50,399 nucleotides of DNA from a virus. This document shows, one piece after another, positions 8,822 through 48,479 of this stretch (positions are counted from its first letter, which is position 1; each line of letters opens with the position of its first letter). The notes under the pieces were generated by a model, which was not told the origin of the DNA, made no database searches, and worked only from the letters and a program-made list of their open reading frames with translations. The stretch lies in the IMG/VR virus record IMGVR_UViG_3300020180_000023, positions 1-50,399 of that record; one strand, 5' to 3'. The translations under genes were made by a program, and so were the position numbers.

Positions 8822-8829
8822 TAGTCACC

Positions 8830-12408: not shown

Positions 12409-12409
12409 T

Positions 12410-15400: not shown

Positions 15401-18400
15401 TGTTAGGCCTATGAGCTTCTGGGCTTCTGCTGTGCGGCTTGCCGATGCAATATCTTCTTTAGCTCTACGCGCAGCGTTAACCTTGGCCTGCTTTTCGGCG
15501 GCTTCGTTAAATGCAAGTTGGGCCAAGTTTTTATTAGCCTGCTCGCTCAAGGTTTGCTCTATGGCTGCGCTAAACGCACTAACTCTAGCCAACACACTTC
15601 CGCCGATTGCACCGACTGCCAGACCTATGGGGCCGCCTACGGCAAATCCAGTAAGGGCTCCAGCAATACCTCCTTCAATAGCAGCGCCTAGACCTTCACC
15701 AACAGCATTGGCTACAACGTCCTTTCCATCTCCCTTAAATGACTTTCTTACTGCGTCGGCTAGGAATGTGCCACCAACTGCCCCGGCCGCGAGAGTCGCG
15801 CCACCGGCTGCCCTTAATAATCTGCCCTGACCAGTTATCTGCCTAGACAGATTCTTTCTAGCTTTATCCTCTTCCTTGATAAACTTTGTATATTCTTTCT
15901 GTTTATCAGTAACATCATTAAGAGCATTCTGTTCTGCCTTAAGGTCTCTTACGACCCGGCCTCTTAAGTCATTTAGTTTATTTTGTGCTAACCCGATATT
16001 GTTTCTAAGAGTAAGTTCCTGTGTTGCTAGCTTTACTCTATCAAGCTGTAGCTTGCTTGCCTTTTCTTCCGAAATAAGACCTTCGTCCTGCGCCCTTTTA
16101 ATTCCATCGGAGGCAGTTTCTTTATTCCCCAATAGGTCTGATACCGCACCCCTACTTGCAGCTGTTCCTATCTTAGATGTTGCGCCAAGCAATACTCCCT
16201 GTAGGCCAGCCTTCACCAGTGGAGCTAGTTTTGACAAGCCGATGGCTAGTATAGCCGGACCAATAGCCTCCAATACACTAACTAGTTTATTAAATCCATT
16301 TACTAGTGAAGTAACTCCTGAAACTGTCAACTTTAGGAACGATTGAATTCCAGTATTGTTTGTTAGTTCAGTAAACTTATTAGATAGACTTGTAATAGAA
16401 GCTTCTAGGCCCTGAGCCTCAAACTTTTCCTTTAGAAAGGCTCTGGCTGCCGCTTCTGCGACATAATCAATCTTGGCTTGGTTGGTAGATAGATTACCAA
16501 GCTTCTGGTCTAGTGTAGAGACGGATGCGGCTAGAGCTTGGCCGTCTGCCAAGTTTCTACGGTCAAATATTAGGCGGGCCAACTGGTCAGCGGCCTCTGG
16601 ACCCAATCTAGAAATTTGCCTCAAGACATCTAGCGAAGCCTGGAAGTCAACGGCTCCTTCTGCTCCGATAATTTCAATACCAGTAAGCTCTTTAATCTTA
16701 TCGGCATTTTGAATAGACAGAGTTCCTAGCTGTCTGAATAGAGTTCCTAGACGCTCAGCGCTGGCACCAGTAGCATCGGCAGCAACACCGACTAGGTTAA
16801 TAGCCTGAGCAAAGTCGATTCCCTGTAGGTTGCTAAATGTAGCGCCTAGACGAGTTGTAGCATCAATCAACTGAGATACGCTGAACGAGCTTTCGTCGGC
16901 CACGGCCGCTAGGACGGCTCCTATATTTTCTACAGCGCCAAGGTTCTTAAATACCTCATCATTTATACCAAACTGGTTCAAAATAGCATTTAGGCCAGTA
17001 GCAGCTTCTTCGGCCGACAATGCTCCAGCCTCGAACCTAACTAGAGTATTAACTGTCTTAACGAAGCTAGAAGCTACCTTTTCAGCGCCTCCTGCCAAGC
17101 CCTGTGTAGTGGTAATAAATGGCTGGCCAGTTCTAGCTGAAACCAGGAAAGCCTCTGTGATTTTCTCAATTGATAGGCCAGCTTCCTTTGCTGTCCCAAT
17201 AATCAATTTCATATTCTCTTGCGATATTTTCGCAGCCTCACCGAACGAAATTACGCCCTTGATGATTTTCGTGGATGTCTTTGGGTCAAAGAACGTCAAA
17301 CGACGAGCTTCTCTGTCTAGTGCGATAATTTCATTTGTTGCTGCGCGCAAAGAGCTTAGGGCGCTAAAAATAAATGTCGCTGGTGTAGCCCAAGCCAATA
17401 GACGCTGGGCTGCGTTAGTAGCAGATACGCCGAACTCAAATGCGCTTCTTTGAGCGGCATTTAGCGAGATATCGTATTTTTGAATTAGAGAGTCTGCTCT
17501 CCTTACGGCGCCACCGAAGGTATCTTGCGAGCCAGCAGCATTTTTTGTAAGAGTAATACTTTGATTGATAATTCTATTAAAGACTTCAAGTTGGCGAGTA
17601 TTTAGGTTGGCGGCGAACTTTTGAATATCTCCAATTCCACCTACTTGCGGTAGAGCTTTGCCACTATTTGGGCCGCGGAAAGTATTCTCTTTGGTTGGTA
17701 GTTTACCCTCTGCCTGGGCGTCCTTTACGCGCCGGGCGATTACTTTATTTAGGTCTTCCTGGGTCTTCACTCCCTTTGCAATTGCGCCAGTCTGCTCGTT
17801 TAGCTCATTGGCTAGTTTCTCTAGAGACTTATTTTCTCTACCAAGCTTTTCGTCCGCAATGGCCTTTGTTCTATCCTTTAGCTTCTGGATGTAATCATCT
17901 ATTGCCTCTTCTTGCTTGTGGTTTTGAACCACAACATCGGCCGCTCTCTTAAATAGTTGCTTTAGGTAAGAGTTTTGCGCCTCTTCCTGCTTTTGTCCTT
18001 GAACTGAAGAATCCGCAGCCCTCTTGATTAGCTGTTGGATATAAGAATCTTGTGCATTTTCTAGCTTCTTTTCTCCAGACAAAGCATCAGCCGCGCTCTT
18101 AACTTCCAACGCTGCGATATTTGCACGCTGATTTAGTAAAGCTGCAAGTTTTGTCTTCGCAGCTTCAATAGCCTTGTCATTTTCGCTACCGCCCTCTGGA
18201 CTTGAGGTTACATCAGAAGCAGTTTGAAATCCACCAAAGCTCCTACTAGGAGAATTTGATAGACTTTGAAGGTCAACTAATGCGCTTTCGATTTCGTCCT
18301 TTAGAGCCTGCTTTGCTCTAGCAGTTACTCCAATTTTATTTAGTCTAATTTCGGTAGCATTTTCGATAGCCTGGCGCAAATGCTTTACGCTGCCAGGGAA

Positions 18401-18580
18401 AACGCTTAGATTTACAGGAAGGTCTAGACCGTCATTGGCAAGCTCTTGTAGGCCCTCCAGTGAGATGTTTAGTTCTGGATTCAATACGCGTATAGCGGCA
18501 TTGATATCAGATTGAACTTTTCTGATACTCTCTGGTGATAAGTTTATGCCGAGGCGAACGTCTACATCTACTGGAGGCAT
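12410..18580 (-). CDS. Tape measure protein
   Basis: 2056 residues, the longest gene in the window. The N-terminal quarter is helical with near-repeated segments (QDSYIQQLIKRAAD, QNSYLKQLFKRAAD). Residues about 400-640 match the conserved tail tape-measure core (ATPATFIFSALSSLRAATNE, then GLNAILNQFGI and LGTLFRQLG). A Gly/Ala-rich hydrophobic stretch near 915-1010 (GGPIGLAVGAIGGSVLA) could insert into the membrane. Beyond it lie long coiled coils (KEREVLRNIASIRKEE type and QEFGRILLQG). In siphophages this protein sets tail length; at about 1.5 angstrom per residue it predicts a tail near 300 nm. It follows the chaperone-like genes, the classical order. Confidence 0.93.
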   Translation of the reverse strand: MPPVDVDVRLGINLSPESIRKVQSDINAAIRVLNPELNISLEGLQELANDGLDLPVNLSVFPGSVKHLRQAIENATEIRLNKIGVTARAKQALKDEIESALVDLQSLSNSPSRSFGGFQTASDVTSSPEGGSENDKAIEAAKTKLAALLNQRANIAALEVKSAADALSGEKKLENAQDSYIQQLIKRAADSSVQGQKQEEAQNSYLKQLFKRAADVVVQNHKQEEAIDDYIQKLKDRTKAIADEKLGRENKSLEKLANELNEQTGAIAKGVKTQEDLNKVIARRVKDAQAEGKLPTKENTFRGPNSGKALPQVGGIGDIQKFAANLNTRQLEVFNRIINQSITLTKNAAGSQDTFGGAVRRADSLIQKYDISLNAAQRSAFEFGVSATNAAQRLLAWATPATFIFSALSSLRAATNEIIALDREARRLTFFDPKTSTKIIKGVISFGEAAKISQENMKLIIGTAKEAGLSIEKITEAFLVSARTGQPFITTTQGLAGGAEKVASSFVKTVNTLVRFEAGALSAEEAATGLNAILNQFGINDEVFKNLGAVENIGAVLAAVADESSFSVSQLIDATTRLGATFSNLQGIDFAQAINLVGVAADATGASAERLGTLFRQLGTLSIQNADKIKELTGIEIIGAEGAVDFQASLDVLRQISRLGPEAADQLARLIFDRRNLADGQALAASVSTLDQKLGNLSTNQAKIDYVAEAAARAFLKEKFEAQGLEASITSLSNKFTELTNNTGIQSFLKLTVSGVTSLVNGFNKLVSVLEAIGPAILAIGLSKLAPLVKAGLQGVLLGATSKIGTAASRGAVSDLLGNKETASDGIKRAQDEGLISEEKASKLQLDRVKLATQELTLRNNIGLAQNKLNDLRGRVVRDLKAEQNALNDVTDKQKEYTKFIKEEDKARKNLSRQITGQGRLLRAAGGATLAAGAVGGTFLADAVRKSFKGDGKDVVANAVGEGLGAAIEGGIAGALTGFAVGGPIGLAVGAIGGSVLARVSAFSAAIEQTLSEQANKNLAQLAFNEAAEKQAKVNAARRAKEDIASASRTAEAQKLIGLTRQLEDISSELEANANNEEKEKILLERQTEKLIEIENFRAEIGKKALSVDKEREKVLRNIASIRKEETRFLSSIEIFESTLDGLADTKRQAEFQLVINEASFGRQLDNLGREISKQREFKSFLIEINANRSEVDKVEKDIEALRDKEFKLRAENEKKILALRRDVVDRATDDTQQQISAWEAAAQSVVGAFAEAVGSQSELSSLILSQADAASEVIANRANEVASLLEARGASVETRIASARRDAQRQIAEVNRIGARSLGVLRSGGAESFKSGDELAKAASQLTKIMGEAARLGNAKAFDEEKKTFNLELSLLRQRAEEENTLFGLRIQQTKAEIDIRRRVLSEELSVIQGRISSERELNNLKNEQQREFGRILLQGPEEFLAVAKDIKNARNFFKGVGNVNKKGLETISNRSQGARQTNQFAGLQSVVKGLEALTKIGGSEVISGTSNAQLQEIFEKIQARSPEDLLKDIEKQRQELEGQTSLQKALKERQERLAVLAETEATLSSAQLRINQEANNAAIQQRDALLLTARESLSVQKKHLQELVNLQAVQNNKALDEIVKQLGSFGQIRVNPDTSQAEFVQSIGAQMDAGAEEIISKGIAAFQKVKEENDRLATFQRGLADNTAKITEIYKASEAAVGRFNSAFLETAGILTSNNDKLKQDASGVQDVAGTSVFNGIGGGADLIKKIESSLTPLISSGGNLRGLKVSGEGIRDANLRGTSSNIGNRASRRLLESDEISGGLESSFRDLLGGDSQFIKSIKELRGTGARGARNLDPDRVRELLSQAGLSGVASDVDTRGEAVQLVDKLVKFADELNKTPDKLSERATTILRDLLATEIKQGFANIGDVLAARRNPVNAREGAAADAASTDVDIFSENNATEFGKKFSEVVAKELEGAFVEMVETVGNATIRNLAVSYEGIFTKVQGLEIKVPALEVNINGAVRNIIDGERFLVRLTETLAGSGVSEQQIKDIKERVAEMVNVMVRSGQLTPDIRE

Positions 18581-36523: not shown

Positions 36524-39010
36524 CTAACTACACTTCGAACTTCCGCAATTCTGGCAACGTGGACAACCCTCTTGGTAAACAAACTCAGTTCCATCGCAAA
36601 ATGGGCATTTGTTAGATGAAAGCATTCTAGAGCCTTCTCCAATATATTTCTTGAGCACTCTACCCAATACTTTATTCAAGTCCGTTACGTTTCCCTCTTT
36701 TCCTAACTGCTCAACCAAAAACTCAATTGGAGTGCCGTGGCGTAGTGCAGTGGACACTAGGCGAGTTGCCCATCCAAATTGGTCGCCGCCATCTGTAAAA
36801 CAGAGCTTTGATACAATGTCATCAATTGACTCACAATCGTTATCAAATACCAAACTATACCTACCCTGCGCTCTTCTTACAACTTTGCCAGTCTTGCACT
36901 TGTTTGGAATGTCAATCGTAGAAGCTGGGCCGCCAAACATCTCGTAAGGCTCTCCATTTAATAGACCTACAATAGCATACCACTTACGACCCTTTACGGA
37001 AACTTGGTGGATTTCGCACGCCAATTCCTTAGGACGCTTTGGCGCCATCATTCTCACAACGCTCTCTGGCCTTACAGTTGTATCAATCTTCTTATTTGCG
37101 GCGCCTTCTTTTTCGTCAACCAACACTCCGTCACGCGAGCCGTCAACATATACAGTAACGCCCTTTAGACCGCTCTTCCATGCGTGCAAGTAAATCTGTC
37201 CAACCGTCTCCTTGCTAGTCCCCCTTGGTAGGTTGATAGTTGATGAGATGGAGTGGTCAATATACTTCTGCAACGTTCCCTGAAGCTCAACGCGGGCCAG
37301 CCAATTAATATTTTCTGACTCTACAAAGATATCAGGGAGGGCATTTAGGTCGCCACCAGTGGTTTCTGCCCAATTTGCAACGTTGTGATGGTGGACCTTA
37401 AATTCCATCCAGTGGTCACCCAAATCATCAATGCGGTCCGTTCTAAAGCCGGGGTCTCCTGGGTTTCCCTTCTTCCTTCTAATGTGAGCATTTTTGAACA
37501 CAGGCTCCATACCAGAGGAAACTTGGAAACGCTTGAAGCTTGGGCCAGTCTTAGAGACCAACGAAACGGAACCAGTAGGAGCGTTAGTAAGGAGCGCAAT
37601 GTTCCTTCTTCCGTGAACTGCCATCCTGCGCTGGATAGACTCTGGCAAGCTCTTGATATACTCATTATCCTTTTCGGTTTCCCAATTAAACTCAGGAAAT
37701 GGGCCACGGATAATAGCTAGGTCAATGGAAGTATTGTAGGCAGTATCCCTAAGCTCGGCACCTAGAGTATCAGCGAATGCCAATGCATCCTTACCATCAT
37801 ATCGGAGTCCTAGCTGAGCCATGGTATCGGCCAAGCCGTGAGTGCCAAGGCCAACACGACGACCACGTTCGCCAGCCTCACGCAACTTGCCCCACATAGT
37901 GCGCTCTAGCTCATCTTCGCACTTCGATAGAATCTTATCAATCAACTCCAACTCGATATCGACCAAGTTATCGGCCATTTGAGTGGCAGTAGTAACATCT
38001 CTTCTAAAGGCACTCCAGTCGAAGTAAGCCTCTGGAGTAAATGGATTTCGGACGTAAGCAGTTAGGTTGATGCTTATTAGGCGGCAGGAGTCATAGGGCG
38101 ACAGACAAATTTCGCTGCATGGATTTGTTGATGTAGACCTAAATCTCTTGTAAGAGTGAGCAGGGAGTCTCTTGGTCATACGGTCCCAAAAGATAAGGCC
38201 GGGCTCGGCACTTAGCGTTGCGTATTTGATAATAGTATTCCAAACGTCGCGCGCTCTTACCATTCTGCAAAATACAGGAATAGTTCCCTCTTCACATGGG
38301 AAACGCTGCTCGTATTCAGTATCTTTGTCTACCGCTTCCAAGAACTCGTCAGTTAGACGAACTGAGACGTTAGCTCCAGTTACCTTCTTTTTATCCGCTT
38401 TCATAGCGGCGAATTTTTCAATATCAGGGTGATGGACATTCATGGTTAGCATCAAAGCTCCACGGCGACCATCCTGCCCTATGCGGCGCGTAACTTCGCT
38501 GTATAGGTCACAAAAGGATGCTGGGCCAGTCGTCTTGCGCGCGGCATTATTTACCGACCAATCTTCTGGACGTAAAGTACTTACGTCAACGCCAACGCCA
38601 CAGCGGCGCTTATAAAGCTGTGCCAGTTCAGTAGCGGTCTTAAAGATACCACCAATTGAGTCATGTGGACTCTCTACTACTACACAATTGGATGCGCTCA
38701 TCACTCTCAATTTATTACCAACCGCACTCATCGGCGAGCCTTGCGGAACGATGCGCTCAAACTCAAGCATCGCGCTGAGATACTCCGAATATTTCTCCGC
38801 TAGATTAAATCCATACTTCTCATGGTCTACGCGGGCAAACTCGGAAGCCAGTCTCTTATGCATGTCGTGAGGAGTCAATTCGTGGTAACGACCCTCATTG
38901 TCCTTTACTGCATACTTGTCAGTCCAGACAGACGCCTCTAGCTCGCCACCGTTGAAATATTCCTTGGTGCAATTCATAACCTCTTCAAACGAATACGTTG
39001 CGCTTGACAT
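36524..39010 (-). CDS. nrdJ: Class II (B12-dependent) ribonucleoside reductase
   Basis: 828 residues from the ATG four bases after GGAGG (an upstream ATG at 39061 has no such site). Active-site features: Cys109 in SNCVVVESP, the NPCSEICLSP loop near 298-307 with catalytic Asn, Cys and Glu, and NAPTGSVSLVSKTGPSF in the phosphate-binding part. The C-terminus has a TSCPD-like region (CEIHQVSVKGRKWYAIVG) and a cysteine-rich end (CPFCDGTEF, CPRCQNCGSSKC) that can shuttle electrons. The enzyme makes deoxynucleotides using adenosylcobalamin, without oxygen or a second subunit. It supplies precursors for phage DNA synthesis. Confidence 0.93.
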   Translation of the reverse strand: MSSATYSFEEVMNCTKEYFNGGELEASVWTDKYAVKDNEGRYHELTPHDMHKRLASEFARVDHEKYGFNLAEKYSEYLSAMLEFERIVPQGSPMSAVGNKLRVMSASNCVVVESPHDSIGGIFKTATELAQLYKRRCGVGVDVSTLRPEDWSVNNAARKTTGPASFCDLYSEVTRRIGQDGRRGALMLTMNVHHPDIEKFAAMKADKKKVTGANVSVRLTDEFLEAVDKDTEYEQRFPCEEGTIPVFCRMVRARDVWNTIIKYATLSAEPGLIFWDRMTKRLPAHSYKRFRSTSTNPCSEICLSPYDSCRLISINLTAYVRNPFTPEAYFDWSAFRRDVTTATQMADNLVDIELELIDKILSKCEDELERTMWGKLREAGERGRRVGLGTHGLADTMAQLGLRYDGKDALAFADTLGAELRDTAYNTSIDLAIIRGPFPEFNWETEKDNEYIKSLPESIQRRMAVHGRRNIALLTNAPTGSVSLVSKTGPSFKRFQVSSGMEPVFKNAHIRRKKGNPGDPGFRTDRIDDLGDHWMEFKVHHHNVANWAETTGGDLNALPDIFVESENINWLARVELQGTLQKYIDHSISSTINLPRGTSKETVGQIYLHAWKSGLKGVTVYVDGSRDGVLVDEKEGAANKKIDTTVRPESVVRMMAPKRPKELACEIHQVSVKGRKWYAIVGLLNGEPYEMFGGPASTIDIPNKCKTGKVVRRAQGRYSLVFDNDCESIDDIVSKLCFTDGGDQFGWATRLVSTALRHGTPIEFLVEQLGKEGNVTDLNKVLGRVLKKYIGEGSRMLSSNKCPFCDGTEFVYQEGCPRCQNCGSSKCS

Positions 39011-39043
39011 AAAACCTCCGAGAGCTTTGTAGTAAATAATTAT

Positions 39044-39074
39044 GGGCCGTTGCTCTTCCAAGCTGCTTCGGCCC
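39044..39074 (-). terminator. Hairpin between 132-residue gene and nrdJ
   Basis: GGGCCG (39044-39049) pairs with CGGCCC (39069-39074); an inner GCT/AGC pair is possible. On the plus strand it is followed by a T-rich stretch, on the minus strand by ATAATTATTT, so it could act in either direction. It lies in the 107-base gap after the 132-residue gene. Confidence 0.45.
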
Positions 39075-39589: not shown

Positions 39590-39629
39590 TCACTATACAG
39601 TAGAGAGTTTTTCTCTCGTCGTCTTTCAA
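39590..39629 (-). promoter_or_regulatory. Bipartite promoter-like element, copy 2
   Basis: Minus-strand TTGAAA, 21 bases, TACTGTATAGTGA. Spacing and the 13-base block match the copy at 2635-2674. It lies in the 167-base divergent gap between minus and plus gene runs. A plus-strand TTGAAA with TATAGA 20 bases on (39635-39667) may serve the plus genes, with a long spacer. Confidence 0.45.
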
Positions 39630-39683
39630 GCCCCTTGAAAACTTTCTTTTCCCGCACTCTTATAGAGTAGGGGAGATGAAGAG

Positions 39684-39989
39684 ATGAGAGGCGTCGGCCG
39701 CATTAAATTAATCATCGCAGAGCTTGAAAAATACTGGACTAAGAACCCAGACCTTCGCCTGTGTCAAATTATCGGGAATATTCTGGAGACAACAAAACAG
39801 TGTCCTTACTGTATGGGGTCTGGATTTATAATGCGGTTAGGAAAACACGAGTGCTGTATTCGGTGTCTCAGTAGTGGATACGTAGATGTAAGCACTTACA
39901 ATGTCGAAGACGACATTATCTTGAAGAAACTAACAGAACTAAATTTGCAGCATGAAATGAAGGAGCGTCTATCGTGGGGAGCTATGTAG
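39684..39989 (+). CDS. Small zinc-ribbon protein with NPDLRLxQIIGN signature
   Basis: 101 residues. The N-terminus IIAELEKYWTKNPDLRLCQI carries a short helical signature that recurs in phage and bacterial small proteins. Residues 40-66 form two Cys pairs, CPYCMGSG and CCIRCLSSGY, like DnaJ zinc knuckles. First gene of the plus-strand run, after GGGGAGATGAAGAG. The next small gene starts inside its end in another frame. Function unknown; zinc binding is likely. Confidence 0.7.
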   Translation: MRGVGRIKLIIAELEKYWTKNPDLRLCQIIGNILETTKQCPYCMGSGFIMRLGKHECCIRCLSSGYVDVSTYNVEDDIILKKLTELNLQHEMKERLSWGAM

Positions 39990-40120
39990 TAATAAATCAT
40001 AGATGGGTTTCAGAAACAGTAATGGAACCCTGCGGGGCGCACTACGTGCCTAAAGTAGTAGTGAGAGATGTTTATACTTGTGACTTGAATACAGCGCAAG
40101 CCGTGACAGTAGAGGAATAA
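39974..40120 (+). CDS. Small unknown protein
   Basis: 48 residues from GTG, nine bases after AGGAG. It overlaps the preceding gene by 16 bases and ends 3 bases before the next. Content VGSYVVINHRWVSETVMEPC and later CDLNTAQAVTVEE. It fills an otherwise empty gap in a tightly packed run, which is the main support. Confidence 0.5.
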   Translation: MGSYVVINHRWVSETVMEPCGAHYVPKVVVRDVYTCDLNTAQAVTVEE

Positions 40121-40123
40121 CTC

Positions 40124-40432
40124 GTGATAGAACTAGATACTAAGGTTTTGGTATTAGACACTCATTACGATGGCGCACGTAAATTCGTGGGGCAAACTGG
40201 CTTCGCTATAGGTAGAGTTCCTAATGGTTGGACTGAGGAAGAGGATTTGATATTGGTAGAATTTGACCCCACGAAACTTTCATTCGAACAAGTCTTTGGA
40301 GACCACTATGAAGACCCTAGGTGGAACGATTGCTGCTTTGAAGGAATGGAAGATGAACACCAGGGAATTTTCTTAAGGAGTTTTCCTACAAAGAGTGAAG
40401 GAATACAACCCATCGGGTCGCCTACAGACTGA
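40124..40432 (+). CDS. Unknown small protein, SH3-like barrel possible
   Basis: 102 residues from GTG after AGAGGA. IELDTKVLVLDTHYDGARKFVGQTGFAIG, then EEDLILVEFDP, looks like a small beta barrel for cofactor or RNA contacts. No family recognised. It overlaps the next gene by 38 bases. Confidence 0.6.
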   Translation: MIELDTKVLVLDTHYDGARKFVGQTGFAIGRVPNGWTEEEDLILVEFDPTKLSFEQVFGDHYEDPRWNDCCFEGMEDEHQGIFLRSFPTKSEGIQPIGSPTD

Positions 40433-40610
40433 GGAGGGAGCCAAGGTAATTGACGTAGAGTTAAAGAAGCTCCTAGAAAAACATCACATCGCCTACGCTG
40501 ACAGAGTGGCCAACAGGGACGCTCCGAGAATTGTCTGCAAGGACGTGCTGATGATATTGGGAAAGGTGCAGCCGCCTCCTGTTATATACTTTGGAGTCGA
40601 AAAACTATGA
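40395..40610 (+). CDS. Unknown small protein
   Basis: 71 residues from GTG. The chain has a helical middle (EEGAKVIDVELKKLLEKHHI) and ends VIYFGVEKL, overlapping the following ATG by 4 bases (ATGA). No family recognised. Confidence 0.55.
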   Translation: MKEYNPSGRLQTEEGAKVIDVELKKLLEKHHIAYADRVANRDAPRIVCKDVLMILGKVQPPPVIYFGVEKL

Positions 40611-40948
40611 TATTTCTAGGAAACGGAGAATGTTCCCAGGATATGGTGAACGATAGGATAATCCAATTCTTGGACCTAATCACACATCTTGGCGGCTTAC
40701 AACAAGGGCTTAATAGTAAGAAGGTTCTTAACAAATACAATAGGAAAGCTAAAAGATTTGCCCGCCAAATAAAGTTTGACCTCTTAACGAATAAAGTTGG
40801 TGACCTCAAGCTATACAACTCGCCAGAATACTTAAAGAAGGTTAGGGCGGCATTTGAGCAGCTAGACAATGCTCTAGGCATTGCTGCTAGAGAAGAAAGA
40901 AATAAGTGGGAAGTTGAGGAAGACGAAGAAAGGAACATTCCATTTTGA
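40607..40948 (+). CDS. Unknown helical protein
   Basis: 113 residues, mostly helical with a charged C-terminus (ERNKWEVEEDEERN). Coupled to both neighbours by 4-base overlaps: ATGA at the start and TTGA at the end. The middle KYNRKAKRFARQIKFDLL is basic. No family recognised. Confidence 0.6.
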   Translation: MIFLGNGECSQDMVNDRIIQFLDLITHLGGLQQGLNSKKVLNKYNRKAKRFARQIKFDLLTNKVGDLKLYNSPEYLKKVRAAFEQLDNALGIAAREERNKWEVEEDEERNIPF

Positions 40949-41361
40949 AGATAGCTTTTGATATTGGTGGGGTCTTGAGTAAATACCCAGCGGAGTTTAG
41001 AAAATTGCTCGCTGACCTAGATGGCAACGATGACATAGAATTGTTTGTCATAACAGACATGCATGACAAGGATGAAGTTGTTAAGCAGTTGAATGAGAAT
41101 CTAGGCTACTTCTTTTCACCAAAGAATGTTTACTGTGCTGACTATGAAAAGCATGGGGAACTCTGTAAGGCAGTTCTGTTAAGGGACTTAAAAATCGACA
41201 TGTTCTATGACGATTTCGTTGGTTACACAATGTGGCCTCCACACTTTGGGCCAGCCCCAATAAGAATGTTGGTCATGCCTGATGGTTACAGACCTTATTG
41301 GCATCCTGACTGGAAATGTTCTGGTGGTGATTTTGGCCGCCGGGTTTACAAAGGAGAATAG
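40945..41361 (+). CDS. HAD-like protein with altered catalytic motif
   Basis: 138 residues from TTG overlapping the previous stop. Motif I reads FDIGGVL: the nucleophile Asp is present but the second position, usually Asp, is Gly. ELFVITDMHD may supply motif II (Thr) and MFYDDFVGY motif IV (paired Asp). The length is short for the superfamily and has no cap. Phosphatase or nucleotidase activity is possible but the missing general acid argues against typical chemistry. It overlaps no downstream gene. Confidence 0.6.
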   Translation: MKIAFDIGGVLSKYPAEFRKLLADLDGNDDIELFVITDMHDKDEVVKQLNENLGYFFSPKNVYCADYEKHGELCKAVLLRDLKIDMFYDDFVGYTMWPPHFGPAPIRMLVMPDGYRPYWHPDWKCSGGDFGRRVYKGE

Positions 41362-41362
41362 A

Positions 41363-41734
41363 ATGCACTTTGATGCAGAAAAAGCTAGAAAAGCAACAAA
41401 CGTAATCCTGGTTAAAAAAGAAGAAGAATACAGAATGGAAGCTTGTAAGGTTGCAAGGGAAAAGTCTCAGCAATTCAAAGCCGGAGAGTATGATGCTTTT
41501 CAAAGGCTTGGAGAAATTGAATCACTAATATGCTTGGAAGCTGGCAAAGGAAGAGGGTATGCGACATATCAACATGGTCCATTTGAATGGAGTGGCCCAA
41601 AGCTAGCTTACTTAGAAGGACTAAGTAGCGTTATATTATCAGAGCTTACAAGTAATGGATATCAAGCTGTGGTTAATATAATCGGCACGAAAATTTCAGG
41701 AACACTAATGTTAGACGTGGGAGTGGGGTGGTAA
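41363..41734 (+). CDS. Unknown protein
   Basis: 123 residues from the ATG six bases after AAGGAG. The first half is charged and helical (EKARKATNVILVKKEEEYRMEACKVAREKSQQ). The second half is Gly-rich with beta character. No family recognised. An in-frame ATG upstream lies inside the HAD-like gene and has no ribosome site. Confidence 0.6.
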   Translation: MHFDAEKARKATNVILVKKEEEYRMEACKVAREKSQQFKAGEYDAFQRLGEIESLICLEAGKGRGYATYQHGPFEWSGPKLAYLEGLSSVILSELTSNGYQAVVNIIGTKISGTLMLDVGVGW

Positions 41735-41735
41735 A

Positions 41736-41954
41736 ATGGAAACTGAAGCAGTAGTAATAGACTATACAAACTGGAAGGGTAATAGACGCTTCAGGCGAAT
41801 TGTGCCAAAGCCCAATGGTTTGGAGTTCCGAAGCAATCAATTCCATCCAACTAAACAATGGTTGCTTGAAGCTTTTGATTTGGATGATAGGGAGTATAGG
41901 AGCTTTGCTCTCTCCTCAATCCATTCGTGGACTCCTCTAGGAGAGACAAGATGA
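41736..41954 (+). CDS. WYL-like small protein
   Basis: 72 residues. VVIDYTNWKGNRRFRRIVPK then QWLLEAFDLDDREYRSFALS matches the pattern of phage single-domain WYL-like proteins: a strand, an arginine-rich turn, a Trp-leu strand, and R-x-F-x-L. WYL domains bind ligands or nucleic acids. It ends in ATGA, coupled to the Nudix gene. Confidence 0.6.
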   Translation: METEAVVIDYTNWKGNRRFRRIVPKPNGLEFRSNQFHPTKQWLLEAFDLDDREYRSFALSSIHSWTPLGETR

Positions 41955-42376
41955 TTAGATATGTGCTAGGCTTCCTATTTAATAATGGGGAAGACAAAGT
42001 AGTATTGATTAGGAAGAATAGACCAGAGTGGCAAAAGGGCCGCCTGAACGGTGTTGGTGGTAAAATTGAAGGCTGCGAGACTCCACGCCAGGCTATGATA
42101 AGGGAGTTTAGAGAAGAGACGGGCGCCAAATGGGAAGACTGGAACCACTTCGCAACCCTACAAGGCGAAACCTTTTTAGTTGAAATATTTAGAGCATTTG
42201 ATACTGAGACGCTTGGTAAAGTCCAGTCTATGACAGATGAATGGGTTGAAACTCATGACATAGAAGATATTACTTCGGGCCGCCTCTGGACTATTAGTAA
42301 CTTGGCATTTTTAATCCCGCTGGCTATAAATCCAAAAGACATCCGTCTACCAGTCGTATTCAATTACGACAAATAA
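41951..42376 (+). CDS. Nudix hydrolase (MutT-like)
   Basis: 141 residues. A perfect Nudix box at 37-59: GKIEGCETPRQAM then IREFREETGA, meeting the Gx5Ex7REUxEExGU pattern with Glu43, Arg51, Glu52, Glu55 and Glu56. LNGVGG leads into it as in MutT. The enzyme hydrolyses a nucleoside diphosphate linked to another group: an oxidised nucleotide, a cofactor or an alarmone. The substrate cannot be told. Start ATG overlaps the previous stop. Confidence 0.92.
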   Translation: MIRYVLGFLFNNGEDKVVLIRKNRPEWQKGRLNGVGGKIEGCETPRQAMIREFREETGAKWEDWNHFATLQGETFLVEIFRAFDTETLGKVQSMTDEWVETHDIEDITSGRLWTISNLAFLIPLAINPKDIRLPVVFNYDK

Positions 42377-42387
42377 AGGAGAATGAA

Positions 42388-42648
42388 ATGAAAGTTAAAT
42401 ATGAACTATCGCCTGAAGACGTAAAAAGAGCCATTAGAGAATATTTGGGACTGAAAGCTACTTCTACAGTTACGTTTAACATCTCAAATGATTTTACGGA
42501 CTACCAGGAGACCTCGCGTGTAATAAAATTTGAGGGCGCTGAAATAGAAGACGAGCCGCAAGACCAGGCGAAAAAGAGGCCGGCGACACCAAAAAGAAAG
42601 AAAGAGCCGCCGCATTCTCCCTCCCAACTAGAATTAATGGGCCACTAA
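42388..42648 (+). CDS. Small acidic/basic protein, paralogue of next gene
   Basis: 86 residues. LSPEDVKRAIREYLGLKATS followed by a beta pair; the C-terminus is Lys/Pro-rich. The next protein has LTSEEIIRAITSFYGYPADA at the same place and GARIAWK like GAEIEDE here, so the two are paralogues. AAGGAGA lies before ATG. Confidence 0.65.
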   Translation: MKVKYELSPEDVKRAIREYLGLKATSTVTFNISNDFTDYQETSRVIKFEGAEIEDEPQDQAKKRPATPKRKKEPPHSPSQLELMGH

Positions 42649-42837
42649 ATGGCGGGCCAGGCAACTTCCGAACTTACTAGTGAAGAAATTATAAGGGCAA
42701 TTACTTCCTTTTATGGGTATCCCGCCGACGCTGAAGTTATCTTCACTACAAAGACTCTTCCGCCGCGCGAAGGGTCATTATTTAATTTCCCAATGGATGT
42801 AATAGACGGGGCGAGGATAGCATGGAAAACGGACTAG
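42649..42837 (+). CDS. Small protein, paralogue of preceding gene
   Basis: 62 residues starting right after the previous stop. It repeats the helix-then-strand plan of its neighbour without the basic tail. It overlaps the next gene by 16 bases. Function unknown. Confidence 0.6.
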   Translation: MAGQATSELTSEEIIRAITSFYGYPADAEVIFTTKTLPPREGSLFNFPMDVIDGARIAWKTD

Positions 42838-43271
42838 TTAAAAACAACCATCCTTTTTATTTCTCCTATGGAGATGGTATAGGAGAAAAGAAATACCCAG
42901 CCCCATTAAATGTATTTGAGGCTAGGGAAATAACTGAGCGCAAAATAGAGGAGATGAAAGAAGAGGAGAGGTTATCCTGCGCTCTACAGCGAATGAAAAC
43001 TGAAGAGTATAGGAGTGGAAGGGCGTATGGGTCTCAGTTTATTAAAGAACAAATTTGGGGGCCTATTAGGACCGCCGCCGAAAAGGGTTTAAGTGATATG
43101 ACTACATCTATGAGTGGTCAATATGGAATGAAGGGTAAGGCTCATTATGAGGGCATATTGGACGTAATTATTAATACGCTAAGACCCGCAGGCTTTGAAG
43201 TTAATGGTAGTATAAAGAAGAGCCCGAACTCTTATTGGTTAATATTTACTGTAACGATAAGTTGGAAATAA
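42822..43271 (+). CDS. Unknown protein
   Basis: 149 residues. Charged helical first half (REITERKIEEMKEEERLSC), then a Gly/Met-rich middle (MTTSMSGQYGMKGKAHYEG) and an ending VTISWK. The ATG has GCGAGG upstream. Its stop overlaps an ATG in TAATG. No family recognised. Confidence 0.65.
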   Translation: MENGLVKNNHPFYFSYGDGIGEKKYPAPLNVFEAREITERKIEEMKEEERLSCALQRMKTEEYRSGRAYGSQFIKEQIWGPIRTAAEKGLSDMTTSMSGQYGMKGKAHYEGILDVIINTLRPAGFEVNGSIKKSPNSYWLIFTVTISWK

Positions 43272-43415
43272 TGCACGAAGAATTAGAAGGTTTTTACTAA
43301 TGGGACTTGTTGCGACTGTGAATATGGTGGGGCGGCCGAAACAAAATGCGATATTAGAAAAGACGGCATTCATTGCGTTCATTGGTGGGATGGGCCAGAC
43401 GAAGAGGGTGATTAA
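43271..43415 (+). pseudogene. Frameshifted Cys-rich zinc-finger-like gene
   Basis: Framed on both sides by TAATG couplings (43269-43273 and 43413-43417), yet 145 bases long, so one base too many. The ATG frame ends after nine codons at TAC TAA. One base on, in the +1 frame, the rest reads TNGTCCDCEYGGAAETKCD then HCVHWWDGPDEEGD, a clear small cysteine protein with no start codon of its own. The shift point is the run of five T at 43291-43295. Either a natural or sequencing single-base insertion has broken it, or +1 slippage on UUU is used. A competing frame from 43300 gives a hydrophobic peptide and is less likely. Confidence 0.65.
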
Positions 43416-43645
43416 TGGATGAAGTAATAGACGTAATAATCAAGGACACGGTTAAGGTCGAAGGGAGAGGAACCATCTTTGTAGTAGAAAAGGAAGGTTC
43501 GCCTGTTCCACTGCGCAAACTGCGGCGCGCGACAATAAGGGTGGACGGCGCCATTTATAATGTAGTGGGCTTTGAATGCTGGTGCTTACCAGAGGACGTT
43601 GAGTTGAATGTTGCGGGCTTATTGGTTAGACCTCAAGCCGCCTAA
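43415..43645 (+). CDS. Small beta-rich unknown protein
   Basis: 76 residues, coupled by TAATG to the preceding Cys-rich frame. EVIDVIIKDTVKVEGRGTIFVVE and the later RATIRVDGAIYNVVGFECWC give an all-beta barrel look. Last gene of the packed plus-strand run. The family is not recognised. Confidence 0.65.
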   Translation: MDEVIDVIIKDTVKVEGRGTIFVVEKEGSPVPLRKLRRATIRVDGAIYNVVGFECWCLPEDVELNVAGLLVRPQAA

Positions 43646-44156
43646 ATTGAGATAAAACCGGCCCTGTGAGGTTACTAGTTATTTTTTAAGAGACTGAAAG
43701 AGGAACTGACTGGAGCAGAGGGATTATATAGAGTGGGCAAGTGAGATATGCGAGCCCTCCAGTGGGTATTAGGTGAGGATAGTTGAGGATAAACGATTCT
43801 GGAGACTTTCCATATATTTTAAAAGCCACCCCTGTCCATATGCGCCTATACGAATGGTAATAATTCGAAAAACCCCCCACCCCCTAGCAAACTTCGGACC
43901 GTGAGCGCTCGAGAAATGCGCTCAAAGCAAAGCACGTTCCAAGACAAATGCTTGACGCAAATTCGAGAGAGCACAAGCAAATCCCATGCCCGATGTAAGT
44001 CTAGTAACTACGCAAGTAGTGAATATGGGCCTATTGACGCATTAGATGCCCGCCATTGAACGCGTGAGGGTCTAGGTGCTACGGGTCAAATATCCAATCC
44101 AAATGAAGCCTTGCCCTTCTAATAACTTCGCCCTTTTCTTACATACCTAACGAAAA

Positions 44157-44263
44157 CCTAACGACGCTCCCTAACACAAACCTAACGACGCTCCCTAACA
44201 CAAACCTAACGACGCTCCCTAACACAAACCTAACGACGCTCCCTAACACAAACCTAACGACGC
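44157..44263 (+). repeat. 24-bp tandem repeat, 4 units plus partial
   Basis: Four exact units (44157-44180, 44181-44204, 44205-44228, 44229-44252) and 11 bases of a fifth. The unit is two related halves, CCTAACGACGCTC and CCTAACACAAA, giving CCTAAC about every 11-13 bases. One more CCTAACGAAAA precedes it. It lies in non-coding DNA and looks like iterons or binding-site clusters. Confidence 0.92.
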
Positions 44264-44285
44264 AAGTCCTTTGTTTTCAAGGTGT

Positions 44286-44320
44286 TATAACATCAATCAC
44301 GGCATGTTCGGCACGCTTCT
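44286..44320 (+). repeat. CGGCATGTT element, copy 1
   Basis: ATAACATCAATC, one base, then CGGCATGTT. The same string with one different base recurs at 50129-50150. Related CCGGCATTTT elements are at 47866 and 48755. Confidence 0.65.
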
Positions 44321-44708
44321 TGCTTGCGTTTTTAACTGGCATAACACTTGCTTGTGAGACGAAGCGTAATACGTCGCACGAAATGACACGTAACGCTCCT
44401 ATTTCGCTATAAATCCGAGAAAAATCCAACCGAGTAATGGCAATGGGTTACGACTGAGTGTTTTCAATGGGTTAGAGCTAACCCTAGCAACGGTGCCGCA
44501 CTAAATTCTGAAACGAAGGTAAGACCTAGAAAACAAACAGCTTGGAGCTTTTGCAGCGGAACGCTTTTGAAACGGCTGGCCTATAGGTAGAGAGACTCTG
44601 GATTCAAGCCCGATTCTCTTGTTTGGTCTTTCACAACTAAGCTTGCTTCCACGCGTGAGACGCTAACGAGCCTATCTAGGCTCAATGGCCAGTAACGCAT
44701 GGTGACAA

Positions 44709-44734
44709 GCTTCCCTTACCAACGGGAGGGAAGC
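44709..44734 (+). other. Stable hairpin in the non-coding region
   Basis: GCTTCCCT (44709-44716) pairs with AGGGAAGC (44727-44734) around a 10-base loop. There is no T-run, so it is not a clear terminator. It might be part of a structured RNA preceding the DUF6011-like gene. Confidence 0.5.
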
Positions 44735-44966
44735 GTAGCAAGCGGCCTTTGAGCGAATGGAATTTCGCTAAGGGATTCACTTAACAAAGCCATAGCTTGT
44801 TAGGTGCGAGATAATCAGTCTATGGCTCGAAAGCGCCTAGCGTCGAGTGACGCCGCACAATGGACCATGGCAATGCAACGGGAAACCTTGCGCTATGCGT
44901 TGTGCCCCGGTTCGAATCCGGTAGGTAGCGATTTGGGGGTGAATCGTGGAAAGGTTAGGTGTCCGT

Positions 44967-45509
44967 ATGGCTCGCAAGCTTCAGGAGGTTTACACGGTTG
45001 AGGATTTGAGAGACGGTAGTTGGGCAACGTGGCAAGCGGCAATGGGCAAGAATGGGACATACGTTCTGAGCTTGCTTTGTGCGCGGGAGAATAGCGCACA
45101 AGAATCGTATAAGGAGGTGGCGCGCGTTTCGTTCCTTTCCGACGATAGCGCTGAATTGGTGATTTTTCAGAACGTTGTGCCGCACAGAATTAAGGCGACG
45201 AGCTTCTTGCCCCATGTTCTCATGGCCTATGGTGTCAAGGTTCGAGGTTATGAAATGGGCGCGGGAATCCTGCCCGATTGTTTCGAGCTTTTGCCCGCGT
45301 CACGGTGCACGCGTTGTATGCGCATTCTGACTCGCCCCGAATCAATTCGAACCGGGCTCGGTGACGAATGCGCCGGGCGGCGCGCGCGCGCCGGAAGTAA
45401 GTTCGAGCGAGCCAAGCAATTGGGCTCCGCTGAGGAAATGAACAGACATATTCGGGCGCGCAATAAAGAGCGCGAAGCGGAAAATAAGTTTAGGCTACCG
45501 ATTCGGTAG
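44967..45509 (+). CDS. DUF6011-like zinc-binding protein
   Basis: 180 residues from ATG; an in-frame GTG at 44946 after GGGGGTG is an alternative start. The C-terminal part has CTRCMRILTRPESIRTG then LGDEC (Cys114, Cys117, Cys135), the signature of DUF6011 domains common in phages: CxxC, L(T)xPxSIxxGxGxxC. The last 40 residues are basic helices (SKFERAKQLGSAEEMNRHIR). The gene uses more G/C at third positions than the genes left of 43.6 kb, suggesting different origin. Function of the family is unknown. Confidence 0.8.
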   Translation: MARKLQEVYTVEDLRDGSWATWQAAMGKNGTYVLSLLCARENSAQESYKEVARVSFLSDDSAELVIFQNVVPHRIKATSFLPHVLMAYGVKVRGYEMGAGILPDCFELLPASRCTRCMRILTRPESIRTGLGDECAGRRARAGSKFERAKQLGSAEEMNRHIRARNKEREAENKFRLPIR

Positions 45510-45565
45510 CTTGAAGCTCTGTATAGGCTTATCGGGCTTTTCTTTCAACATCAACTGGAGGTGTC

Positions 45566-45685
45566 ATGCTCATTCGCATTGTTCGGGCAGGCTTTTGTCC
45601 GTGCGGTTGCGCTATCCGCGTCAGGAAGGGTGACTCGGGCGGTTACACTGTCATGGGCCGCCGAGTCCGTTGGGTGGTGATTTAA
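45566..45685 (+). CDS. Small Cys-containing peptide gene
   Basis: 39 residues after CTGGAGGTGTC. FCPCGCAIRVRKGDSGGYTV has three Cys in a row of five residues. Its TAA overlaps an ATG (TAATG). Short, but ribosome site, coupling and cysteine pattern support it. Confidence 0.5.
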   Translation: MLIRIVRAGFCPCGCAIRVRKGDSGGYTVMGRRVRWVVI

Positions 45686-45711
45686 TGTATACTCACAAAC
45701 ACGAGGTTATC

Positions 45712-45840
45712 ATGCGGGACAATGTCGAGGTTTTGAAGGACGAAGCGAAGCTACTGGACAGATGGCTGCGCTATGGTCATGACCTGCGCGCATGGGACGT
45801 TTACCAAGAGGAGGCTCAATCGACTGAGACTGAGGAATAA
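45712..45840 (+). CDS. Small gene of cassette copy 1
   Basis: 42 residues, MRDNVEVLKDEAKLLDRWLR and an acidic end. The start is chosen because ACACGAGGTTATC before the ATG is preserved in the second copy at 45942, with GAGG five bases before ATG. An upstream ATG at 45685 is in frame but not conserved. The 5' leader and first nine codons are almost identical to copy 2. Confidence 0.55.
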   Translation: MRDNVEVLKDEAKLLDRWLRYGHDLRAWDVYQEEAQSTETEE

Positions 45841-45864
45841 GCACTAGTTCAATGGGTCTTTATG

Positions 45865-45877
45865 GGATAAATACCTA
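45865..45877 (+). promoter_or_regulatory. GGATAAATACCTA motif, copy 1
   Basis: The same 13 bases lie at 46180. The context CTAGTTCAATGG upstream and TCTTGCC downstream is also shared. ATAAATA resembles the T4-type late core TATAAATA. Each copy is followed by a gene start, 65 and 33 bases on. Confidence 0.45.
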
Positions 45878-45941
45878 TCTTGCCCTGCTTAGGAATTAAG
45901 CTTATTCGTTATACTTCAACAAACACGAACACGAGGTTATC

Positions 45942-46163
45942 ATGCGGAACAATGTCGAGGTTTTGAAGTCTCACAGACGGGCCATGGTGGCCGTCCTCGT
46001 CGTAATTGACGCCTGCTCTCGCGCGCTTAGCGACCAGCGCGCGGACCAGCGCGTTGCGCACGGTCGTCGGGTCGCGTTGTGGCAGAGCGGCGGCGCAATC
46101 GCGCCCAGGGAGCGCGCGGGCGCGCTCTGCTGCGCCTTCTTCGCCGCTTCCTACCGCTGCTAG
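45942..46163 (+). CDS. Small gene of cassette copy 2 with GC-rich replaced body
   Basis: 73 residues. MRNNVEVLK matches copy 1, after which the sequence departs completely at the codon following AAG. The rest (45969-46163) is very GC-rich and gives an Arg/Ala-rich chain of low-information type. This suggests a foreign segment dropped into the cassette. The leader makes translation likely; whether the protein is functional is doubtful. The opposite strand is also open (45909-46241). Confidence 0.4.
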   Translation: MRNNVEVLKSHRRAMVAVLVVIDACSRALSDQRADQRVAHGRRVALWQSGGAIAPRERAGALCCAFFAASYRC

Positions 46164-46179
46164 CTCAATAGGCTTTGTA

Positions 46180-46192
46180 GGATAAATACCTA
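46180..46192 (+). promoter_or_regulatory. GGATAAATACCTA motif, copy 2
   Basis: Identical to 45865-45877, 33 bases before the ATG of the GHKL/metalloprotease gene. It is a candidate promoter for that gene. Confidence 0.45.
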
Positions 46193-46224
46193 CCTTGCCT
46201 TTAACCCTTAACTCGGAGATTTCA

Positions 46225-47673
46225 ATGGCTCGCATCACCATGTCTCACGAATGGTTCTCGAAGATTCTGGCGGATTACTCCAATTGGCTTTTTGCTTGGG
46301 CAAGGGAAGCGGGGCAAAACTCGCTTGACGCGGGCGCTACCGCAATCCGTTGCAACGTCGAATTGCGCGACGGAAATACAGTTGTCGAATGGGCCGACAA
46401 CGGTAAGGGAATGAATCGAAGCGTGCTCGAAACGCGCTTCATGGCCGTTGGCGGCTCGCTAAAGGGCAACGGCGACGCGGGCGGTTTCGGTGTCGCAAAG
46501 CTCGTGTTGGCTTTCGCTCAAGTTTGCTATTCGATTCGAACGGGTTTCTTGTTCGTCACTGGCCGTAATGACGAATACGAAATCATGGAAACGAGCGAAG
46601 AGGTTAAGGGTCTTACCCTAACCGTCACCATGGCCGGTGACGTTGTGCAACGGTTTACCGAATGCGTCGAGCATTGGGTTAGGCATACGACACCGAACCG
46701 GCCGGTTTGGTTCTATCTCAACGGCCAAGCCTTGCGTTTCATGCCTTCCCTTCCTGCGCCCGCGAGTGTCCAGGATTGGTGTTCGATTCACGTTCTCAGT
46801 GTCGAGGATAACCCGAAGCTTAAATCGGGCGTGAAGGTTAGAATCAACGGCCAGTATATGTTTAATACTTGGTCGGAGGTTTCCTCTTGCATTCTTGTGG
46901 AGCTTACCGGGTCAAGCCTTGTTTACCTCACGTCCAATCGTGACGGTTTACAGGGTGGGTATCGTGACAAGCTTTCGAAGCTTATTAGCCTCATGACGAA
47001 AGACCCTGACGTTTTGTGCGATACCGAATCCGACAAAATCGAGCTTTACGCGGGTGAGCTTGGTCCGGCCGTCGGGGGCGCGATTGATACGACGCAAGCC
47101 CATGGCCGTAAGCTTGTGACGAACAAAGCGCCCGATACGGTTACCGTGTTTGACGGCGAGCCTACCGCAATCGCTTCGGGTGATTCGGACGATTCGTCGT
47201 ATGGCTCTGAAGTTTGCGAGCGTCCCAGCGCTAAGGTTAGCGGGAACGATTTGGTTATCATGAATAAGACGAACAAGCCTATTCCGCACAAGTATACCGT
47301 GGTCGGGATGCGTCCCATGGAATGGCGCCTCTTCGCGAAATGGACGCGCATTGTCCAGGCTTGCGCTACGGCTTTGGGCGTTCGTCGTGCGATTCGCACG
47401 GGATGGGTTTTCTCTACCAGCGCCCGCGCTATGCACAAGAGGAATGAGAAGCTTGGAACGCTCGTGTTGCTCAATCCGTGCGAGCTTGAAGGCAACGAAT
47501 GGGTTAAGGGTTTCGACACTTCTAAGGATTCGTTCTTTACCCTCGTTAGCCTGGCGGTTCACGAGCTTACGCATATCACGCATAGCTACCACGACGAGGA
47601 GTATGCTAGTGCGCTGACGCGTAACATGGCGGTTATTTTCGCTAACATGGCTTTGATTAACAAGGCCAAGTAA
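46225..47673 (+). CDS. GHKL (MutL/Hsp90-type) ATPase fused to HExxH metalloprotease-like domain
   Basis: 482 residues from the ATG five bases after GGAGA (an upstream in-frame start lies on the promoter motif). ATPase: N-box EAGQNSLDAGAT (Glu28, Asn32), like MutL ELVENSLDAGA; strand pair IRCNVELRDGNTVVEW; G1 box DNGKGM (Asp58); G2-like GDAGGFGVAK (83-92). The centre is a transducer-like alpha/beta part and a Ser/Asp-rich linker near 325-335. The C-terminus has VHELTHITHSYHDEEY with His446, Glu447, His450 and His456, an HExxHxxxxxHD zinc site as in WLM/Wss1 or metzincin proteases. No sensor or HNH is seen. The gene stands alone, GC-rich, with its own promoter motif. ATP binding is well supported; proteolysis is inferred. 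Confidence 0.85.
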   Translation: MARITMSHEWFSKILADYSNWLFAWAREAGQNSLDAGATAIRCNVELRDGNTVVEWADNGKGMNRSVLETRFMAVGGSLKGNGDAGGFGVAKLVLAFAQVCYSIRTGFLFVTGRNDEYEIMETSEEVKGLTLTVTMAGDVVQRFTECVEHWVRHTTPNRPVWFYLNGQALRFMPSLPAPASVQDWCSIHVLSVEDNPKLKSGVKVRINGQYMFNTWSEVSSCILVELTGSSLVYLTSNRDGLQGGYRDKLSKLISLMTKDPDVLCDTESDKIELYAGELGPAVGGAIDTTQAHGRKLVTNKAPDTVTVFDGEPTAIASGDSDDSSYGSEVCERPSAKVSGNDLVIMNKTNKPIPHKYTVVGMRPMEWRLFAKWTRIVQACATALGVRRAIRTGWVFSTSARAMHKRNEKLGTLVLLNPCELEGNEWVKGFDTSKDSFFTLVSLAVHELTHITHSYHDEEYASALTRNMAVIFANMALINKAK

Positions 47674-47700
47674 GCGAAGGGATATCTAGTCCAGTCATTT

Positions 47701-47720
47701 GGGAGCTAACTACTCCCTTT
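47701..47720 (+). terminator. Weak terminator after GHKL gene
   Basis: GGGAG (47701-47705) and CTCCC (47713-47717) around a 7-base loop, followed by TTTGACATTTTAG. It lies 27 bases past the stop. The stem is short. Confidence 0.4.
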
Positions 47721-47825
47721 GACATTTTAGGGGAGTTTGGAATACGTTGGTATGGACCAATTTATTGCAAGCTCTAATTTCGGGGCTTTGGCCTTGAAGG
47801 ATAATTATCTTCCGGCCTATTTAAC

Positions 47826-47866
47826 GATTAAGTAGCGTTAGATTTGTTCTAACGTTTTACTTAATC
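47826..47866 (+). other. Long hairpin ahead of the repeat field
   Basis: GATTAAGTA (47826-47834) pairs with TACTTAATC (47858-47866), and inside CGTTAGA (47836-47842) with TCTAACG (47848-47854), loop TTTGT. That is 16 base pairs with one small internal bulge. It runs directly into the CCGGCATTTT element. Confidence 0.75.
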
Positions 47867-47898
47867 AAAACCGGCATTTTGCGTGTCATTTGCGTTTC
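47866..47898 (+). repeat. CCGGCATTTT element, copy 1
   Basis: AAAACCGGCATTTT then CGTGTCATTTGCGTTTC. The copy at 48755-48790 is nearly the same (one G absent, one T changed to C). Both stand at the left side of a group of GAGACG repeats. Confidence 0.7.
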
Positions 47899-48479
47899 TT
47901 GCTCCCGAGACGCATTTGCAACGTTTCATTTGCGTCTGAGACGCTTTTGATACGATTCATTAGCGTGTCATTCGTTCCATATGCGACTCTTGAGACGTAT
48001 TTGAAACGGAAATGAGACGCTAAAGAGACGAATGAGACGTAAAAGAAACTAATAGCTAAATATGAATGAAACGTAAATGTGATGAATAGTTCGTTTCACA
48101 TAAACATTCCCAGCTTCGAAACGAAGTGAATAATTGGATGAGACGTAAATGTGGTAATGGTGAAAAGCGGAGGAATGCTGGCGCCCTGTCGGTGGGGCGT
48201 GGTATGGGGCCGCGTAACCGATTTTGCCCAAATTAGTAGAAAATACGTAACCTGTGGCCCAGTCCCCAGTTAGGGCGTGGAATTCCCATCTAGACCTAAA
48301 CACTTGGGAATGCTACGATTAGGACGCGCCCATCCCTCTTCTGTCACCCTAACGCCCGAAATTCTCCCCTCGCCTTACGTTACCTTTTGTGGGTTCTGTG
48401 CCTATACAGTTGAAGTTAGCTTGGTAAGGTTTGCTCGGCGGGAGTTTTTATTTAAAAATACTTTGTAGTGGAGAATATT

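Follow-up and report, generated by a model that had tools for sequence, protein, structure and literature searches.

A GHKL ATPase joined to a predicted Wss1-like zinc protease in a protein family of large uncultured phages and megaplasmids

A single gene in a 50,399-nucleotide stretch of viral DNA (IMG/VR record IMGVR_UViG_3300020180_000023, positions 1 to 50,399; hereafter the window) encodes a 482-residue protein that is predicted, from its sequence and structural model, to combine a catalytically complete GHKL ATPase and its S5-like second domain with a flexible tether and a Wss1-like minigluzincin holding all zinc ligands and the catalytic glutamate. Both domains are known, while their union as a family is new in the records and literature available to us. 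The first-pass annotation, made from the letters of the DNA alone, had placed the GHKL boxes and an HExxHx5H site in one chain, and the translation revealed all of them at exactly the claimed positions: EAGQNSLDAGAT holds E28, N32 and D35, and HELTHITHSYHDEEY holds H446, E447, H450 and H456 (Table 1). In 20,000 shuffles of the window protein, the chance of HExxH was 1.4% and that of HExxHx5H was 0.035%; the question of chance is irrelevant because homologues keep the site.

Table 1. Coordinates of the GHKL-zincin gene, its parts and a neighbouring gene in the window
Feature	Coordinates	Strand	Basis or remark
GHKL-zincin gene, 482 aa, no internal stop	46225..47673	+	family profile E 1.2e-134
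GGAG, ribosome-binding-like, just 5' of the ATG	46215..46218	+	sequence
GHKL ATPase with S5-like second domain, residues 1-265 (predicted)	46225..47019	+	Pfam HATPase_c weak; PDB profile, model, Foldseek
N box REAGQNSLDAGA	46303..46338	+	E28 general base, N32 magnesium site
G1 box DNGKGM, residues 58-63	46396..46413	+	conserved in homologue alignment
G2 box / ATP lid GGFGVAK, residues 86-92	46480..46500	+	conserved in homologue alignment
SNRDG loop, second domain	46933..46947	+	R239 40/41, D240 37/41
Disordered tether between ATPase and protease, residues 285-335	47077..47229	+	pLDDT <50; 24-25% identity to orthologues
WLM/minigluzincin-like zinc protease domain, residues ~341-482 (predicted)	47245..47670	+	model, Foldseek, HMM vs PDB
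LLNP strand, N417	47467..47478	+	N417 38/41; aligned with likely Wss1 beta3 active-site Asn
HELTHITHSYH: zinc ligands H446, H450, H456; general base E447	47560..47592	+	41/41 homologues
DUF6011 neighbour gene, GC3 0.60	44946..45509	+	Pfam E 1.5e-8

A search for proteins of the same architecture, as the first-pass annotation had advised, found approximately 47 divergent homologues (20–40% identity) in large uncultured phages, six megaplasmids and one MAG contig (L021), the viral contigs spanning 16 to 494 kb. A tblastn search of plasmids returned eight records, six of which encode both ends at 25–29% identity, and about 40 further proteins came from alignment-guided scans of viral contigs. Such scans were needed to find the viral homologues, a single-protein query being insufficient; with the window protein alone as the query, the viral contig scan was empty. 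Nearly all loci were fetched by patterns from the GHKL side (QNxxDAGA, WWREAxQ, GGFGKAK and DxGxGM) and were therefore not selected for a protease. Most family members are stand-alone proteins of about 450–900 aa, unlike polyvalent proteins, and their zincin is Wss1-like and matches no polyvalent MPTase family of Pfam.

HExxH and the downstream histidine could be found in 40 of 41 profile matches at E ≤ 1e-60, the sole exception being L022, on a MAG contig, which has the GHKL part without a zincin. Among weaker matches, HExxH is missing from L070 and L072, and HEVAH occurs in L069 and L071 within larger proteins. A 41-row alignment revealed nine invariant columns, namely D35, G60, K80, G86, G89, H446, E447, H450 and H456; E28 and N32 were present in 40 rows with one gap, M63 in 40, F88 in 39 and D58 in 32, the remainder having N. 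Based on these columns, the zinc site is conserved no less strictly than the ATP site. Absence of HExxH from homologues had been named beforehand as a finding that would refute a protease site, and all four of its key residues proved invariant (41/41).

The same annotation knew of no named phage family with this pairing, and none came to light in Pfam, PHROGs, NCBIfam, PADLOC or 50,697 phage records. The four family databases gave significant matches at the ATPase end only, and tblastn of the window protein against the phage records gave no match; its relatives, used as queries against phage records, gave nothing or only the ATPase ends of rIIA. A pairing of GHKL with a metalloprotease, zincin, WLM or HExxH was not described in the literature searched. 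A MutL-like protein of a faecal contig, matched by tblastn with a relative as the query, lacks HExxH. Two loci on Rhizobium and Sinorhizobium plasmids (L007 and L009) encode ATPases of the MORC type, with Z1, AIPR and Dcm/Vsr genes next to them, and were set aside; the L007 protein lacks HExxH. In 395 genomes of the phylum of the L022 MAG, general GHKL proteins were found outside the genome of L022 itself, and all of those inspected lacked HExxH, a 4,560-aa match lying outside the inspected set.

The C-terminal domain, modelled alone, reached a pLDDT of 95.3 and a pTM of 0.89. Its only high-probability PDB matches in Foldseek were abylysin, jannalysin and Wss1 of two yeasts, with probabilities of 0.93–0.99 for the Wss1 chains, 0.98 for abylysin and 0.85 for jannalysin, and E-values of only 0.02–0.24 for this small domain. 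A domain HMM compared with the PDB independently selected proabylysin and Wss1 (E 0.001–0.006). The zinc ligands of ScWss1 are His115, His119 and His125, with Glu116 as the base (PMC5557861), and the spacing of H446, E447, H450 and H456 is identical. N417 of the LLNP strand is aligned with the probable Wss1 active-site asparagine (Asn-83/Asn-80; PMC5557861). The earlier guess of a WLM/Wss1 protease at this end thus appears right in structure, since the only good PDB matches of the modelled zincin are Wss1 and abylysin/jannalysin and the ligand spacing is equal; the predicted zinc site is likewise compatible with the model, which matches Wss1, a protein whose three zinc-binding histidines have the same spacing along the chain. 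The Pfam WLM profile (PF08325) scored 14.4 bits against a gathering score of 26, and its best E-value among 19 family members scanned was 0.0013. The domain is therefore named WLM/minigluzincin-like and not a Pfam WLM member. The compact zincin fold, HExxHx5H and the core-strand asparagine are common to Wss1/WLM, the minigluzincins abylysin and jannalysin, and the window zincin, but only the last is fused to an ATPase, and Wss1 has SUMO and Cdc48 motifs of a eukaryotic pathway.

The window is collinear with two other contigs, G403 (177 kb, source of L054; terminase 62% identical) and G404 (98 kb, source of L011; terminase 60% identical). A minus-strand block of head, tail and packaging genes is common to all three at about 28–81% identity, and small genes on the plus strand occupy the region beyond the head/tail block. 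There, the GHKL-zincin gene is the only plus-strand gene of the window with a match in G403 or G404 in the stretches compared. Its orthologues have the same place and orientation, outside the head/tail block and opposite to it in strand in all three phages, and are 38% and 26% identical to the window protein (45/31% in the ATPase, 24/25% in the tether and 35/26% in the protease). The window protein and the two orthologues form one clade (support 100/99). Because position, orientation and high GC3 are kept and the clade is single, the gene has long resided at this syntenic position, and it evolves much faster than the terminase with its active sites fixed.

Elsewhere in the window, the minus-strand gene at 36524-39061 encodes the large subunit of a ribonucleotide reductase (E 1.1e-98 in PHROGs), and the G403 protein at its place is only 23% identical over partial length. 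The minus-strand gene at 12410-18580 encodes a 2,056-aa protein with no Pfam match above the curated cut-off and none in PHROGs; it is 28.5% identical, over partial length, to a G403 protein.

In one homologue, L020, the module is embedded in a 3,112-aa protein (5352-14687, plus strand) that also has a radical SAM domain and, in its C-terminal part, matches DarB-like antirestriction proteins (phrog_10089, E 1.6e-19). This polyvalent, multi-domain architecture is absent from the window protein. The L020 protein also carries a second zincin-like site, HELFGH. In one clade, DUF5661 is fused to or beside the GHKL-zincin gene (L014, 7764-11294; L016, 6990-7742; L017, 5865-7310; L026, 10406-12223). 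The neighbour analysis of homologues revealed no partner gene recurring across clades. On the Bosea and Methylorubrum megaplasmids (L005, L006 and L008), the convergent gene downstream of the GHKL-zincin gene belongs to one homology cluster and is annotated as a tyrosine recombinase/integrase in L005 and L008, which suggests an integrated element.

The reading that we prefer, with about an even chance of being correct, is that the protein is an ATP-gated zinc protease that is made early in infection and cuts host proteins, most likely those of defence or those targeted for takeover. By analogy with Hsp90, MutL and MORC, the models for the clamp closure and ATP gating proposed here, ATP binding would close a dimeric clamp round DNA or a client protein, closure would keep the substrate next to the tethered protease, and ATP hydrolysis would let it go. 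Zinc proteolysis may have little sequence preference, as is proposed by analogy with Wss1, so that the clamp-held substrate would set the specificity. We infer a host-protein substrate from the variable, non-structural location of the gene, from its fast divergence with fixed active sites, and from the DarB-like fusion. In favour of this reading are the conservation of both active sites across 41 sequences of about 20–40% identity, the modelled succession of an Hsp90/TRAP1/MORC3-like part, a linker and a Wss1/abylysin-like zincin, the low identity of the gene relative to the terminase in a region that is otherwise unshared, and the module within L020 beside a DarB-like part. Phage GHKL proteins of the rIIA type are seen as acting in counter-defence and as having C-terminal domains that vary greatly, and patchily distributed phage zincins of the SprT-like and ArdC-like kinds are predicted to cut host proteins (PMC7824862). 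Zincins are also very frequent in polyvalent proteins (PMC5512222). Against it stand the six megaplasmid homologues, where host takeover has no obvious need, and the lack of a recurrent partner gene that would indicate the target.

The main rival, which we consider unlikely, is a phage counterpart of Wss1, in which the GHKL clamp would sit on phage DNA and the protease would degrade the proteins stuck on it, whether crosslinked ones or host proteins that bind tightly, so that replication, transcription or packaging could proceed. The clamps of MutL and MORC encircle DNA when they close, and the DNA that large phages and megaplasmids must keep free is long. The closest match of the protease domain is Wss1, which is a DNA-protein-crosslink protease and is activated by DNA (PMC4559962). 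However, the archaeal minigluzincin abylysin is an equally good match, and bacteria would not be expected to have the SUMO- and Cdc48-binding motifs of Wss1. Slower divergence than is seen here, 26–38% identity against about 60% for the terminase, would also be expected of a housekeeping repair enzyme.

A less probable alternative is an enzyme that processes the phage's own proteins, either in virion maturation or in the cleavage of polyvalent proteins. The zincins of polyvalent proteins are proposed to process the chain that holds them or to act on the host (PMC5512222), and the location of the L020 module within such a protein, together with the DUF5661 fusions and adjacencies of one clade, is consistent with processing. 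However, the homologues mostly stand alone, and those on megaplasmids have no known virion to process. The placement of the gene outside the head/tail block and on the opposite strand, in the window and in both relatives, also argues against such a role.

The full-length model (pLDDT 84.9), predicted from the viral and MAG rows of the alignment with the plasmid rows left out, was ordered over residues 1-265, disordered over 285-335 and ordered again in the C-terminal domain. In a Foldseek comparison with the PDB, this full-length model aligned over about 340–370 columns with chains of TRAP1/Hsp90 and MORC3, which match its N-terminal part, and the family profile matched MutL, Hsp90 and MORC. 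Residues 1-265 are thus modelled as a GHKL+S5 module of the Hsp90/MORC type; the earlier assignment to the MutL/Hsp90/MORC kind of ATPase was upheld by these matches and by the conserved catalytic residues. The N, G1 and G2 boxes and the S5-like domain with a conserved Arg loop are common to the window protein and to Hsp90/HtpG/TRAP1, MutL and MORC, and R239 in that loop is a candidate for the basic residue contacting the gamma-phosphate, by analogy with Hsp90/MORC architecture. Those proteins have C-terminal domains of their own, whereas a predicted protease stands at that end here.

Among viral models (BFVD), many of the best matches were rIIA proteins, again over the N-terminal part, and hhalign matched the rIIA of phage 44RR2.8t with 94.7% probability over the ATPase domain. 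The window protein could be an rIIA-like protein whose zinc domain serves for structure or binding and not as an active protease, although we judge this slightly less probable still than a processing enzyme. The N-terminal GHKL ATPase and its fold are common to both, but the alignment with the 44RR2.8t protein stops at residue 185 of its 705, and its C-terminal part differs and lacks HExxH. Moreover, E447 would be free to drift if catalysis had been lost, and this residue and the three zinc ligands are invariant, in keeping with an active protease.

The GHKL-zincin gene was also described beforehand as GC-rich against the phage backbone, and it is: its GC content of 0.535 and GC3 of 0.62 lie above those of the late genes (about 0.43–0.48 and 0.35–0.47). 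A promoter motif of its own, claimed at the same time, did not stand, as three sigma70-like sites occur in 5 kb against 4.6 expected by chance. The high GC is no sign of recent acquisition because the orthologues of the relatives are equally GC-rich (GC3 0.70 and 0.71). A recently acquired cargo gene, or moron, with no tie to the phage's own biology would explain a composition above that of the late genes, but it is largely refuted and very improbable, since the orthologues sit at the same position, are equally GC-rich, have diverged to 26–38% identity and form one clade with the window gene, as an old resident would. The window shows two compositional regimes in one lineage (39600-48000 against 600-39500), as do G403 and G404, and many plus-strand genes of the relatives are GC-richer (GC3 about 0.6–0.75), with AT-richer late genes (GC3 about 0.35–0.5). 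The DUF6011 neighbour of the window gene is equally GC-rich, and the stretches of G403 and G404 that were retrieved contain no homologue of it.

As far as we know, AAA+ unfoldases serve the well-known energy-dependent proteases of bacteria and bacterial viruses. A protease linked to a GHKL clamp would couple ATP to substrate choice in a different way. A bolder form of the proposal, which we hold only tentatively and think more probably wrong than right, is that an Hsp90/MORC-type clamp, in place of an AAA+ unfoldase, selects substrates and feeds them to a Wss1-type protease, with which large phages and megaplasmids strip or destroy DNA-bound host defence proteins, constituting a new class of ATP-gated protease. 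Because it recurs in megaplasmids and in uncultured phages as large as 494 kb, the GHKL-zincin family is an overlooked family and not a one-off. For the 'highly variable C-terminal domain' of rIIA-like phage proteins it also offers a concrete reading that can be tested, since in the GHKL-zincin branch this domain is a predicted protease.
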